Part shown: positions 31,610 to 37,591 of the stretch, one piece after another
Numbering within the stretch: the first letter of the stretch is position 1
How the letters are laid out: each line of letters opens with the position of its first letter
Assembly: GCA_937904325.1 (NCBI GenBank)
Contig: CALGTK010000469.1
Coordinates: 1 to 43,974 of the forward strand
Length of the DNA: 43,974 nucleotides
Direction of reading: 5' to 3'
Origin: an uncultured Planctomyces sp.
Lineage (GTDB): Bacteria > Planctomycetota > Planctomycetia > Planctomycetales > Planctomycetaceae
Made by a program: the position numbers and the translations under genes
The notes under the pieces: generated by a model
The model's database searches: none
What the model was told of the DNA's origin: nothing
The model's input: only the letters and a program-made list of their open reading frames with translations

Positions 31610-32077
31610 TTAAACATCGACCTGAGCAGCCAGCATCTGGATATCTTCCAACGGGACGAAGTTACCATTTCCAGCGCCAGGGCAACCTGGCTGGATACTT
31701 TTCCAGTCGGCCTCACTGGTCAGATTTGATTTCCAGAAAGGCCACGTTCGACATTGCCGGGGACGAGCCGTGTATATCGTGCATTCGCGTTTTTGGGGGT
31801 CAAAGTAAACGCAATCACCGTTAGCATACTCGGTCAGTGAGACCCGACCTCTGGCCGGCCGAGTATTCATTAAACGGATTTCTCCGATCGGCTTATCCAG
31901 AAAATCGGCGATGGTCTGGATCTCGTCCTCTTCGACCCAAACGTGCCCCGGTGAACCCGTACAGCAATTTCCGCACCCGGTACATTCGAAGTTGAGTCCG
32001 TTGCGGTACCACGGTCCACCATGAACCGCGTCGCCAGACGGTATACCATCCGGATTATCGCCCGGCGTCGTGCTCAC
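31610..32077 (-). CDS. YkgJ-type cysteine-cluster protein
   Basis: A 155-residue protein with the CxxCxxCC family signature: C32-TG-C35-GN-C38-C39, then C in NGDCVYF, RECTIYTARPRQCRTWPFW and a final Cys in QPGCPG. The cysteines are thought to hold a zinc ion or iron-sulfur cluster; the function is not established. It starts with GTG 32077, which overlaps the stop of the methylene-H4MPT dehydrogenase gene as GTGA. The coupling argues for a shared transcript with the C1 genes. Confidence 0.92.
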   Translation of the reverse strand: MSTTPGDNPDGIPSGDAVHGGPWYRNGLNFECTGCGNCCTGSPGHVWVEEDEIQTIADFLDKPIGEIRLMNTRPARGRVSLTEYANGDCVYFDPQKRECTIYTARPRQCRTWPFWKSNLTSEADWKSIQPGCPGAGNGNFVPLEDIQMLAAQVDV

Positions 32078-32931
32078 TGGTTCTGCCCAATTTCAAAAAC
32101 AGCTGCCGTGTCAAGCAGTAGATCGTTTACGGTGAATAGTTTCTTAACTGCGGCTTTATGAATTTTCATTTTCGTAACGCCGACTCCGATCGCTCCGTAG
32201 CAGAACACCCCGTCCTGCTCCACAGCCTTGTCGAAGACTTCAACTCCTTCGATGCCAACTGGCGGGACAGCATTCAAATCGATCGCCACTTTCAACGAGC
32301 CGATTCGCGACCGCTGCTCAGCCGAGAGAAGCTGAATCCCTGCGGCCCCAGTCGCAATAATCACTTCAACACTATCCGCAGCCGCAGCCAATACGTCGAC
32401 TGTCCCCGTTTCGCAGGGCCAAATATTGGCACCTTCGACCTTCGACCGAACAGCCTCACACGTTGCTTCCGCTTTAGCCGCTGATCGAGTCCCGATCCGT
32501 ACCGTCGCTCCCAGGCTCGTCAGAATCTGAGCGGCCCGTTGCCCAACCGGCCCAGTTCCACCGAGCAGTAACGCGGTTGTGCGCGAAAGATCAACGTGCT
32601 TCCCCGCAGCGAGCACCGCAGCAGCGGCCGTCGTGTTCGAGCCGTTTGAATCAATCAGAATCGAAACACGGACTGGTCCGAAAAACAAAGACTGCACTTT
32701 TTCAAGGAGAGCTTCACCAGCAGCGACATTGCTGCCTCCGATGAAGATCGCCGTATTATTCAGGCCGTCTCCGCCGCGAGTAAACATCGCACCATGAACC
32801 AGCCCCGTGACATTGTCAGGAGTGACTCCACCGTAGGAGAACAACTCGTCGACATCCGAATCGACAGCGACGATCCGATCAAAAGTGCTCGGATGCGCGT
32901 CGGTGTCGAGCTGAATCAATATTTTCTTCAT
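32074..32931 (-). CDS. mtdB: NAD(P)-dependent methylene-tetrahydromethanopterin dehydrogenase
   Basis: A 285-residue cytoplasmic enzyme of the MtdA/MtdB family. The N-terminal domain has GLVHGAMFTRGG and DSNGSNTTAAAAVLAAGKH. The Rossmann domain carries the nucleotide loop LLGGTGPVGQRAAQIL and GTRSAAKAEA. The C-terminal helix KMKIHKAAVKKLF is typical. It oxidises methylene-H4MPT to methenyl-H4MPT in formaldehyde oxidation. I assign the MtdB type, rather than the tetrahydrofolate-linked MtdA, mostly because Fae and an Orf17-like gene lie next to it. Its stop overlaps the YkgJ-type gene by four bases. Confidence 0.9.
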   Translation of the reverse strand: MKKILIQLDTDAHPSTFDRIVAVDSDVDELFSYGGVTPDNVTGLVHGAMFTRGGDGLNNTAIFIGGSNVAAGEALLEKVQSLFFGPVRVSILIDSNGSNTTAAAAVLAAGKHVDLSRTTALLLGGTGPVGQRAAQILTSLGATVRIGTRSAAKAEATCEAVRSKVEGANIWPCETGTVDVLAAAADSVEVIIATGAAGIQLLSAEQRSRIGSLKVAIDLNAVPPVGIEGVEVFDKAVEQDGVFCYGAIGVGVTKMKIHKAAVKKLFTVNDLLLDTAAVFEIGQNQ

Positions 32932-33582: not shown

Positions 33583-34080
33583 TTAGCCAGCGTAGAATGG
33601 GTGCTTGGCTTCGTCCTTCTTGGCAACCATTTCGTCAACCGATGGCTCGTTCTTCATGGCGCGAGCGATCGAAAGCTTGGTGGCTTCCTTGTTGTATTCG
33701 TAGATTTTCTTGTCGTCTTCAGCGTCCCAGTGAATGAACACGCCGCAAACGATAACCAGGTTCTCGGCCTGATCCTTAGGGATGATTCCTTCAGCGACTG
33801 AATCAGCAACAGCGTCGGCGACCGCCTTCTGGGCTGGTCCGAACATCTGAACGGCCTGCTTGGCACCTTTGATGGTCACCTTGGTGATCATAACGGTAGC
33901 TGGCTTGACAGCCAGGTTCGGTTCAAGGACGGCCAGCAGGTTGCTGTGTCCAGCCTTTTGATCCGCCAATGAGTTGGCGAATGCGGTTCCGACAGGACCG
34001 TTCTTATCGCCGATCATCAGATCGATATGGGCAACTTCGTTTCCGTCTCCGACAAGCGCTTCACCGATACACAGCGACAT
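33583..34080 (-). CDS. fae: Formaldehyde-activating enzyme
   Basis: A 165-residue enzyme. ATG 34080 has AGGAG six bases upstream and begins the conserved sequence [20 protein letters not shown]; the longer frame to 34203 is not used. H18 is the catalytic histidine position. [20 protein letters not shown] and [18 protein letters not shown] are hallmarks, as are the [10 protein letters not shown] and [14 protein letters not shown] segments. Fae catalyses condensation of formaldehyde with H4MPT to methylene-H4MPT in the cytoplasm. The product is the substrate of the dehydrogenase at 32074-32931. Divergent from the ATP-grasp gene. Confidence 0.96.
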
Positions 34081-34351
34081 ACTCTTCTCCTGTTGTCTGA
34101 CTCTGGTTCCTGTAAAGTTCTCCCGGCAATGCCTGCTGAAGCAGAACGACCGACAAGAACATGACGGCGGACATCGCCATCTGAAAGTTTGTATTGAGGA
34201 CATAGCCCTGCTGGCCGCGAGTTCCCCGCTTAATGAGCGGTATCATTGAATCTGCCCCGTTCCCTGACAAGCCTCCCGCGAGTTTCGAATTCGAAATTTA
34301 CAAAGACCGCCGTGAGTCCATTCCACCCAATCCTCCTGTCGAATCAGCCAG

Positions 34352-35674
34352 ATGCTCGACCGTGAACCGTTAATTATTGTTGGATCGAGCGTCCGAGCCG
34401 CCGCTCAATCGGCACATCAAGCGGGTTTCGCCCCATGGTGCATCGACCAGTTTGCCGACCGAGATCTCGTGGAAGTCTCAAAGGAAGCGACGACGGTCGC
34501 CGACTGGCCCAACGGCATCGGGTCGGCATTCGAAACGACACCAGACGCCGCATGGCTCTACACCGGCGCCTTGGAGAACAGCCCGGCATTGATCGATCGT
34601 CTTGCCGAAATGCGTACGTTACTCGGTTGCGACAGCGAAACACTTATTCGCCTGAGAAATCCAGCCTGGCTCGCCCAAACACTCTCGAAAGCGTCGCTTC
34701 CGAACCTGCCAATATTCATGCCTAATTCATCTGACCAGTCGACGCTTCCTGTTTCCTCATCCGAAAACGGTCACCAGAATTTTGAGTGGATGGCGAAGCC
34801 GCTTGTAAGTGCCGGGGGGCTCGACGTTCGCGACTTTGACGGAACCGTGGCGAAATGGGACGATCGCGAAGGGAACTTTCTTCAGAAAAGGGTGTCAGGA
34901 CGAGTTGTCTCTGGCCTCTATTTCGGTTCCGGGTCGTCTGCTCGACTGCTTGGAATGAGCGAACAACTGTGCCGCGGCAGCGAAGCAGGCGAATTCTCAT
35001 ACGTTTACTCCGGTTCGCTGGGTCCACTTTCGGCTGACGATATGCCAGCCACCACCTTCCAACAGGCTCAGAAAGTTGGCTCGGCAATTATCAAAGCGAT
35101 CAACTCTGACGACCTTTCTATACGCGGCCTTTTTGGGATCGACTTTGTCCTCGACAACAAAACCGACGATCTTTGGACACTCGAAGTTAATCCTCGTTAC
35201 ACAGCATCCGCAGAACTCTACGAGCGCGAGTTCGGCTGGCCATTAGTTGCGTGGCACGTTGACGCGTGTAGACAAAACGGTATCCCGACGCGTGAGCAAA
35301 GGGGTGGTCCCTCGCTCACGCTTCGGGATACCAGCAGTCACGCAGTCGCAACCAAACCATCACACAAACACGGCAAGCTGATCGTTTATGCCAGGCAGAA
35401 TTTCACGGCACCAGACATCGTTCATCTTGTTGAGCAGTTTAAGTCCCCCAGCGTGCTTTCTGACGCACCATCGAGCATCAAAATGCGTCAAGACGCACCC
35501 GGCGACAACTCCAGAATCACCGTCGCCGATATTCCGAGAATCGGCATGGCAATTGGAAAGGACGAGCCGGTCTGCACTCTACTGACTAAGCAACAAAGCA
35601 GCACCAACTGCCACTCGCAACTGACTACCGCCGCTGATGCCCTGCTGACTTTGATCGATCGAACTTCCTGGTAA
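34352..35674 (+). CDS. ATP-grasp protein, Orf17-like of H4MPT clusters
   Basis: A 440-residue protein of the ATP-grasp superfamily. The N-terminal pre-grasp part is EPLIIVGSSVRAAAQSAHQAG. The ATP-binding part includes FEWMAKPLVSAGG and LQKRVSGRVVSG. The Mg-binding part has LFGIDFVLDNKTDDLWTLEVNPRYTAS. The C-terminal segment ITVADIPRIGMAIGKDEPVCTLL matches, from memory, the ATP-grasp protein (Orf17) that accompanies Fae and the H4MPT enzymes in methylotrophs and planctomycetes. There it is thought to join an amino acid or similar group to the cofactor. It is divergent from fae with 271 bases between. The exact reaction is inferred. Confidence 0.82.
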   Translation: MLDREPLIIVGSSVRAAAQSAHQAGFAPWCIDQFADRDLVEVSKEATTVADWPNGIGSAFETTPDAAWLYTGALENSPALIDRLAEMRTLLGCDSETLIRLRNPAWLAQTLSKASLPNLPIFMPNSSDQSTLPVSSSENGHQNFEWMAKPLVSAGGLDVRDFDGTVAKWDDREGNFLQKRVSGRVVSGLYFGSGSSARLLGMSEQLCRGSEAGEFSYVYSGSLGPLSADDMPATTFQQAQKVGSAIIKAINSDDLSIRGLFGIDFVLDNKTDDLWTLEVNPRYTASAELYEREFGWPLVAWHVDACRQNGIPTREQRGGPSLTLRDTSSHAVATKPSHKHGKLIVYARQNFTAPDIVHLVEQFKSPSVLSDAPSSIKMRQDAPGDNSRITVADIPRIGMAIGKDEPVCTLLTKQQSSTNCHSQLTTAADALLTLIDRTSW

Positions 35675-35747: not shown

Positions 35748-36092
35748 CTATTTAACAACTTCGCCCAGCGCCTCTTCGTTGAAGCCTACGATCAATTTTC
35801 TGCCGACTCGCAGAACGGGAGCTCGCAGCGTTCCCGAGCGGCCAAGAATCATCCCCGCGACTTCGTCCTCGTCGTAGTCATTTTCCAGATTGAAATGGAC
35901 GAGCTTCTTTCCTTTCCCTACATAAAGTTCCTTCATCCCGTCCAGCAGATTGAGCGCGTCATCGCGTTCGTAACTGACTTTGCGAGCGTTGATTTCCTCG
36001 ACAGTGTCGATGTTGTTTTCCGCAAGAAACTCCTGCGTTTTTTTGCAGGACGTTCAGCCGGGTCGGTGATAGCTCCAGTCAATCTTCAGCAT
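35748..36092 (-). CDS. Selenoprotein, Spx/ArsC-like thioredoxin fold with U-T-S-C active site
   Basis: The frame runs from ATG 36092 to TAG 35748 through an in-frame TGA at 36054-36056, giving 114 residues with selenocysteine at 13. AAGGAG (36100-36105) lies seven bases before the ATG. Around the TGA the protein reads RPG-U-TSCKKTQEFLAENNI. This matches the C-T-S-C-R-K plus LEEN(D/E)I start of the Spx/ArsC family, so U replaces the first, catalytic Cys (U13, C16). The C-terminal half has LRAPVLRVGRKLIVGFNEE, a hallmark of the same family. Without recoding, only a 62-residue ORF from Met 53 would be called. A bacterial SECIS-type hairpin lies 3' of the UGA. Likely a cytoplasmic thiol/selenol oxidoreductase; an arsenate-reductase role is possible but unproven. 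It is downstream of xseA on the same strand. Confidence 0.88.
36021..36037 (-). promoter_or_regulatory. Putative bacterial SECIS element
   Basis: On the mRNA CGCAGGA (36037-36031) pairs with TCTTGCG (36027-36021), one pair being G-U, around a three-base loop GUU (36030-36028). The loop G is 24 bases past the UGA. Bacterial SECIS elements have a small loop with a G in its first two positions about 16-37 bases downstream, so this fits. An alternative stem, TCCTGC with GCAGGA around an A-rich loop, sits too close to the UGA. Confidence 0.78.
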
Positions 36093-36265: not shown

Positions 36266-37591
36266 TCAGTCACATTCTGGCAGAACGTTCTCCACACGAC
36301 TGACAATCCGTCCTTGCTCAAGATAAGTCAGCAGCAAATCGCCAGTTTCAACGTCATCCGCTTTCTGGATCAATGGGCCACGTTTAACGCTCGATGAATC
36401 ATCGCCAATTCCACTGTCAGCCGAGCAACCATACGTGACCGAATAACCGCGTGCGAGGACTCCTAACGGACTCAGAGAATTAAGCGTTGCCGATAGTTGC
36501 GCAACGCCCTGCTTTGATCTCTCTACTCGACGACGAACGACGGCGTTTAATCGATCGCTCAAATCGTCGACACCTTCGACCAGTTGCCGAACTCGTTGAA
36601 GCGGATTTGTGAAAACTCTGCGCGACGCCAGCGACTCCAACTGCAAGCGTGCACTGACCGCTCGTTGAGTCAGTGATTTCTGTAATCGCTCGCGGAGTTC
36701 GTCCAACCCGGCCGCAAGTTCTGCTCGATGTGGCACGACCAGTTCGCCGGCTTCGCTGGGTGTCAATGCCCGTCGATCAGCAACGAGGTCCGCGATCGTG
36801 ACGTCGATTTCGTGCCCAACGGCACTGATCACTGGTACCTTACAGCTTGCAATGGCTCGGGCGACCATCTCTTCGTTAAATGCCCAAAGGTCTTCCAGAC
36901 TACCACCGCCACGTCCAGTAATCACAACGTCAACGCCAGGAATTAGATGTACGGCGTCGAGTGCATGCGCAATCTCGGGCGCCGCGTTCGGTCCCTGGAC
37001 AGCGACCGGCACAACCACGATGTCAGCACTCGGCCAGCGGCGTGTGATGACCTGAATCATGTCTTTGACGGCGGCGCTGGTCGGGCTGGTCACTAAAGCA
37101 ATGCGATTGGGAATCCGCGGAATCGGCCGTTTGCGATCCGGATCGAACAGCCCGGCCGCTTGCAGTTTTTCTTTGAGCTGTCGCAGAGCCAGTTCAAGCG
37201 CCCCCATGCCCTGTGGAAACGCCTTTTGAATGATCAGCTGATAACTGCCTCGAGCGGCGTAAACTTCCACTCTGCCGACAGCGACAATTTCCATTCCGTC
37301 GCGAAGCTCAAACCCAAGTCGAGCGGCCGTCGTTCGCCAGACCACAGCCGACATCTGAGCTTCGTCGTCTTTCAGCGTGAAGTAAACGTGCCCCGACCTC
37401 GCCGGGCGACAGTTCGACACTTCTCCGCCGACCCACTGAGTCCTCAGGTTTCCTTCAATCAGTTTCTTGACGTCGTGCGTGAGTTCAGAAACCGACTTCA
37501 CATTCTGAGTCGTACCCATCGGAGCTGTATCACCGGAAGCAGCACCGGCGTTGCCAGCATATTCATCGGCACGGGGATCACCGTTTGACAT
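36266..37591 (-). CDS. xseA: Exodeoxyribonuclease VII large subunit
   Basis: A 441-residue cytoplasmic nuclease subunit. The N-terminal OB fold is seen as WVGGEVSNCRPARSGHVYFTLKD. The catalytic domain has RIALVTSPTSAAVKDMIQ, DVVITGRGGGSLEDLWAFN, and VISAVGHEIDVTIADLVAD with the conserved RALTPSEAGE. A long coiled coil (about 290-385) and the C-terminal SPLGVLARGYSV complete it. It degrades single-stranded DNA together with XseB. No xseB gene follows in this window, although it usually does in other bacteria. It starts six bases after the stop of the TIM-barrel gene and is followed by the selenoprotein gene after 173 bases. Confidence 0.96.
   Translation of the reverse strand: MSNGDPRADEYAGNAGAASGDTAPMGTTQNVKSVSELTHDVKKLIEGNLRTQWVGGEVSNCRPARSGHVYFTLKDDEAQMSAVVWRTTAARLGFELRDGMEIVAVGRVEVYAARGSYQLIIQKAFPQGMGALELALRQLKEKLQAAGLFDPDRKRPIPRIPNRIALVTSPTSAAVKDMIQVITRRWPSADIVVVPVAVQGPNAAPEIAHALDAVHLIPGVDVVITGRGGGSLEDLWAFNEEMVARAIASCKVPVISAVGHEIDVTIADLVADRRALTPSEAGELVVPHRAELAAGLDELRERLQKSLTQRAVSARLQLESLASRRVFTNPLQRVRQLVEGVDDLSDRLNAVVRRRVERSKQGVAQLSATLNSLSPLGVLARGYSVTYGCSADSGIGDDSSSVKRGPLIQKADDVETGDLLLTYLEQGRIVSRVENVLPECD

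Follow-up and report, generated by a model that had tools for sequence, protein, structure and literature searches.

Several types of ArsC-like selenoprotein have been described. They were already included in a 2006 survey (PMC1794560, in its accessible text), and the accessible table passage of PMC1242214 is without ArsC. In the parts available of the Sargasso Sea study (PMC1088965) and of the 2008 marine Global Ocean Sampling (GOS) survey (PMC2398784), a selenoprotein arsenate reductase has a UxxS motif, and the table of the GOS survey also gives 'Arsenate reductase 2', assigned to cd03032, with a UxxC motif and 42 sequences. A 2026 review names an 'Arsenate reductase-like protein' with UxxC, equates it with the NCBIfam family NF041106 and cites the 2008 survey for it (PMC13188914, excerpt), and a 2022 review lists an entry with that name and motif in the corresponding excerpt (PMC9312934). 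From this citation, and not from a comparison with the 2008 sequences, we infer that NF041106 is 'Arsenate reductase 2'. Selenoproteins have also been reported in Planctomycetes (PMC4807772, accessible text). In its accessible passages, the 2026 review describes nearly all such selenoproteins as largely uncharacterised in function, and the literature searched, within the text it offers, gave no function for the NF041106 family.

The window analysed here is a 43,974-nt stretch of contig CALGTK010000469.1 from an uncultured Planctomyces sp. Its minus strand carries a frame (35748-36092) that runs from an ATG to a TAG (35750-35748) and comprises 114 residues when TGA is translated as selenocysteine. 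The sole in-frame stop between ATG and TAG is a TGA at codon 13 (36056-36054), and a Shine-Dalgarno sequence, AAGGAG (36105-36100), is located 7 nt before the ATG. The first-pass annotation had proposed a hidden selenoprotein from this 114-codon frame, its single TGA and its ribosome-binding site, and had noted that the standard code yields a fragment of 62 residues; the sequence bears out all of these points, the fragment starting at M53. The stretches flanking the TGA, which had been called family-like, belong to one and the same family, since NF041106 (ArsC_rel_Se_1, 'ArsC family (seleno)protein') spans residues 4-108, or model positions 1-106 of 107, with 129 bits against a cut-off of 85. 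The active site of this family is UxxC or CxxC, and that of the window protein is U13-T-S-C16, in which Cys16 (36047-36045) is the presumed resolving thiol. Pfam ArsC matched as well (33.5 bits; cut-off 24). The window protein thus resembles NF041106 in its full-length match, its motif and the presence of both Sec and Cys members, with no difference of substance. As far as the accessible sources go, it also shares the motif and the broad class of 'Arsenate reductase 2', and it has Sec in an ArsC-like protein as does the UxxS enzyme of the Sargasso Sea and GOS data, but with UxxC instead. The contigs closest to the window that bear names are from assemblies titled Planctomycetaceae, Planctomyces, Planctomycetota and Rhodopirellula. 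The gene is therefore a further member of a family catalogued since 2008, in NCBIfam and in print, and not a new family. Whether the family had been described was left undecided in the first-pass annotation; it is described as NF041106 and, by the citation in the review, in the GOS survey.

For the locus as a whole, the best explanation, to which we give a probability of about 0.85 on sequence evidence, is a stand-alone NF041106 selenoprotein with Sec at codon 13. SelB and tRNA-Sec (anticodon UCA) would insert selenocysteine at this codon, aided by a hairpin located a short way into the coding region. The product is predicted to adopt a thioredoxin-like fold of the Spx/ArsC type, in which Sec13 would attack as a selenolate and Cys16 would serve as the resolving thiol. 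The resulting selenenylsulfide would then be reduced by a thioredoxin or glutaredoxin system.

An AlphaFold2 model of the window protein had a mean pLDDT of 93.4 and a pTM of 0.85. When this model was compared with the PDB, Spx was the best match by fold (Foldseek E 5.2e-05, TM 0.55; Z 8.6, rmsd 5.3 Å over 95 residues), followed at comparable Z by YffB, ArsC-related proteins and glutaredoxins; these matches of a predicted structure are middling. In an alignment of 46 family members, W6, Y8, R10, U/C13, C16, G61, G84, G87, R90, P92 and G103 were invariant, and R90 and P92, identical in 46/46 rows, belong to the R90-A91-P92 (LRAP) motif at 35825-35817.

The family name raises the question of whether this is an ArsC-type arsenate reductase that depends on selenium. 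Besides the Pfam ArsC match, the stretch before the active-site residue is YH-x-P-like in both proteins (YHNPRCSKSR in the ArsC of the same genome and YHRPGUTSCK in the selenoprotein), and the His at -4 from residue 13, found in 75/86 copies of the family, is likewise present in that ArsC. In contrast, TIGR00014, the model for glutaredoxin-linked ArsC, found no match in the window protein even at E 10 and only weak ones in five of 46 family members, the best with E 0.0019. A separate Pfam-ArsC protein encoded in the same genome scored 124.8 bits against the TIGR00014 cut-off of 106.05. The window protein also has a second Cys three residues on from the active-site residue. When the two proteins were aligned (18% identity), A91 and F104 of the selenoprotein were found where ArsC has Arg, before the Pro and after the last conserved Gly, respectively; these Arg residues we take to be catalytic and among the three that bind the substrate, the third of which is ambiguous in an alignment of such low identity. 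Arsenate reduction by the window protein is therefore unlikely, and the hint of an arsenate-reductase-type enzyme was the weak part of the first-pass annotation.

A redox-sensing transcription regulator of the Spx type, with a selenolate switch, is quite improbable for different reasons. The Spx chains 1z3e, 3gfk and 6ghb were the best PDB matches by sequence (5.3e-06) as well as by fold, and these solved chains align through their CTSC exactly at UTSC, so that U replaces the first Cys of Spx, as the first-pass annotation had proposed. Yet the Spx/MgsR model TIGR01617 gave 40.8 bits, under its cut-off of 75.05, and three Spx models gave 24.8-33.7 bits, under cut-offs of 123-159; Spx chains comprise 131-132 residues compared with 114 in the window protein. 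A more specific and still less probable idea, which we regard as speculative, is a selenium-tuned redox switch rather than a plain reductase, in which a Sec13-Cys16 selenenylsulfide would gate partner binding in a Spx-like manner and lineages would set the response threshold by repeated exchanges between Sec and Cys. Because the protein fails the Spx/MgsR cut-off and has no TIGR00014 match, and because the genome encodes ArsC separately, it is most likely a UxxC oxidoreductase of the thioredoxin fold. We judge thiol-disulfide or peroxide-type reduction to be more likely than arsenate reduction.

To return to the selenoprotein reading, codon 13 was compared among 86 copies of the gene. It was TGA in 53, TGC in 31 and TGT in 2, that is, a Cys codon in all 33 copies without TGA, whereas Cys16, Arg10 and Trp6 were each found in 86/86 copies. 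The exchange between Sec and Cys that the first-pass annotation had suggested looking for at residue 13 is thus located precisely there, and U/C13 together with C16 is universal in the set. NF041106 matches were present in 61 of the 170 genomes of the window's order; of 61 places in 60 of these genomes, 31 (from 31 genomes) have TGA at codon 13 and 30 (from 29 genomes) have TGC or TGT. A sample of 392 genomes from the phylum yielded 81 places above the NF041106 cut-off, distributed over 80 genomes; counted by eye, 70 of them contain one in-frame TGA and the other 11 contain none. The 30 best-scoring of these 81 places were available as loci, of which the 23 new ones (20 TGA, 3 Cys) entered the analysis, the TGA being at codon 13 in all 20. 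The counts leave out G076 (two fragments), two fragmentary rows of G002 (contig C29), L002-L005 as duplicates of G049, G048, G047 and G045, and L008 as a 23-residue fragment.

The neighbouring residues differ between the two kinds of copy. Gly12 is present in 53/53 TGA copies and 22/33 Cys copies, and residue 14 is Thr in 46/53 TGA copies and Asn or Lys in 20/33 Cys copies; this bias may be tied either to chemistry or to the RNA context of the UGA. In the phylum sample, genome G213 carries two copies above the cut-off, on contigs C12 and C5, and an in-frame TGA is present in just one of them.

The first-pass annotation had made its reading depend on selB and tRNA-Sec being present in the genome, and both are. 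The assembly (7.97 Mb, 488 contigs, 99.87% complete) contains a tRNA-Sec of 70.3 bits (gathering score 47), which ARAGORN also reports as tRNA-SeC with anticodon tca, and SelB (341.4 bits), SelA (497.4 bits) and SelD (262.4 bits), each above its curated cut-off, so that the selC, selB, selA and selD set is complete. SelD makes up the C-terminal portion of a fusion protein (L028; contig C278, 1399-3636) whose N-terminal portion is a pyridine-nucleotide-disulfide oxidoreductase domain, and this protein scored 363.5 bits with TIGR03169 and 259.5 bits with TIGR00476. Mis-binning of the Sec genes is possible in principle, because the assembly is in 488 contigs and these genes are on contigs other than that of the window, but four sister genomes with TGA copies also carry both SelB and tRNA-Sec.

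Across the order, SelB or tRNA-Sec was detected at strict thresholds (E up to 1e-60 and 1e-9, respectively) in 30/31 TGA genomes compared with 8/29 Cys genomes, counts that are not independent because the species are related. At the same thresholds, SelB was found in two of 14 control genomes (E. coli and M. jannaschii) and tRNA-Sec in three (these two and Thermus composti). By part, 28/31 TGA genomes had SelB and 24/31 had tRNA-Sec. The three without strict SelB (G056, G058 and G085) contain SelB pieces of 190-208 bits covering the first 133-165 positions, and in G056 and G085 a second contig bears most of the remainder; the one TGA genome with neither strict SelB nor strict tRNA-Sec is among those with SelB in pieces. 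Strict tRNA-Sec was missing in 7/31 TGA genomes. A looser scan of nine TGA genomes found only sub-threshold matches in five of these seven, of a kind that also occurs in control genomes, and none in G056 and G105; the looser rescans covered only TGA genomes lacking strict hits.

Bacterial selenocysteine insertion elements (bSECIS) are expected as a hairpin soon after the UGA with a conserved G in the loop, and a candidate with these features was found in the window. It comprises a 7-bp stem and a 3-nt apical loop, GUU (36030-36028), 23 nt after the TGA (36037-36021, minus strand; CGCAGGA-GUU-UCUUGCG), and a 23-nt stretch cut around it folds in this manner with -8.7 kcal/mol. A stem of at least 6 bp with its loop 22-23 nt after the TGA was found in 31/31 TGA copies of the order and 46/53 overall, compared with 0/30 Cys copies of the order and 0/33 overall, and the loop letters GU are at this place in all 31 TGA copies of the order. 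Only 1/500 synonymous recodings of the window copy formed as good a stem, against a null whose codon usage was pooled from the genes of the family itself. In genus g48, whose loop is AGUU, and in family f20, 16-34% of recodings did so; codon choice adds little there because the encoded residues favor a stem. The stem-position and recoding tests used all 86 copies without selection.

Covariation was analyzed in 29 of the 53 TGA copies, picked by eye for the 3-nt-loop register, so that the pair counts lean towards structure: 96.6% of cells pair, changes occur on both sides at 4/7 pairs, the covariation score was reached by 0/500 shuffles, and RNAalifold recovered six of the seven pairs. The rows outside this selection are seven of genus g48 and nine of family f20, which have a 4-nt-loop register, seven copies with no hairpin here, and L102, overlooked although it has the 3-nt-loop register. 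The seven TGA copies without the hairpin at its usual place (L101, L109, L110, L111, L116, L117 and L007) are all from outside the order, and their bSECIS may be elsewhere or different in form. For the window copy, a free RNA of 45 nt folds at minimum energy (-13.0 kcal/mol) into a competing hairpin, UCCUGC/GCAGGA (36050-36031). This was rejected as a functional element, its covariation being no better than that of shuffles, and it requires nucleotides 4-9 after the TGA, which should be covered by the ribosome once the TGA occupies the A site. As a test, 48-nt folding energy performed poorly and hardly separates the groups (mean z -1.01 in 31 TGA copies and -0.60 in 30 Cys copies).

These data also bear on the idea that the TGA is read through as another amino acid such as Trp, or simply suppressed, with no selenocysteine involved. 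We consider this very improbable, since codon 13 is exchanged only with Cys codons, TGA copies track SelB or tRNA-Sec with SelB pieces in the exceptions, a tRNA-Sec with the tca anticodon is present, and a bSECIS-type hairpin accompanies the TGA copies. Selenocysteine recoding of codon 13 is instead strongly supported by the comparisons.

The whole frame also behaves as one coding unit, as differences among five species of the genus, which are all of its species with the gene, are mostly synonymous in each part. Summed over 10 pairs, which are not independent, we counted 16 synonymous and 4 nonsynonymous differences in codons 1-12, 72 and 36 in codons 14-52, between the TGA and M53, and 241 and 92 in codons 53-114. 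All five species have TGA at codon 13, and therefore a sequencing error is not credible; the NF041106 profile search gave no match in G046 (59% complete), the sixth genome of this genus. That a recent nonsense mutation or a sequencing error has left a mere remnant of a gene is scarcely conceivable and is contradicted by conservation, for although the TGA does break the frame in the standard code, TGA stands at this codon in 31 genomes of the order as well as in 22 further relatives, constraint extends to both of its sides, no further stop interrupts the frame, and the Sec machinery is present. By these sequence tests, this is a genuine selenoprotein gene, and the first-pass annotation was right in substance. 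Sixteen other frames of the window with an in-frame TGA passed a crude motif filter, and none of the five scanned against NCBIfam was above a cut-off.

The genes around the locus were compared using the two nearest frames on each side. Upstream and on the same strand is xseA (36266-37591), encoding the large subunit of exodeoxyribonuclease VII, and a gene for an ATP-grasp protein (34352-35674, plus strand) is the convergent neighbor. The xseA neighbor cluster is found only in the window's genus, in 5/5 copies there. Among the neighbor clusters with at least three members, the largest has 7 members from 4 genera in mixed positions, and the other 13 are within one or two genera. Since neighbors are not kept beyond one or two genera, they give no pointer to the substrate. 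A formaldehyde-activating enzyme, Fae (33583-34203), and a protein whose N-terminal domain is that of a methylene-tetrahydromethanopterin dehydrogenase (32074-32931) are also encoded near the selenoprotein gene, which, along with the ATP-grasp gene, suggests a one-carbon gene cluster; no such neighbor is widely recurrent beside the other copies of the family.

In a tree of the 86 copies built with residue 13 masked (115 columns, with many forks open and several long rows), 10 changes between U and C are needed, and the well-supported branches force at least six. The tree is unrooted and thus gives these changes no direction. Two species of genus g18, one with TGA (L061) and one with TGC (L047), have the same upstream neighbor at 5 and 8 nt, with SelB and tRNA-Sec still present in L047.

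Because the standard code trims this gene to a fragment without its active site, an annotation that does not read the UGA as Sec is wrong here. With one in-frame TGA in 70 of the 81 places of the 392-genome sample, the same error would be common in the phylum. The mixture of TGA and Cys codons at a single position, including the pair in genus g18, offers a natural experiment on the reasons for which bacteria retain selenium at a redox site.
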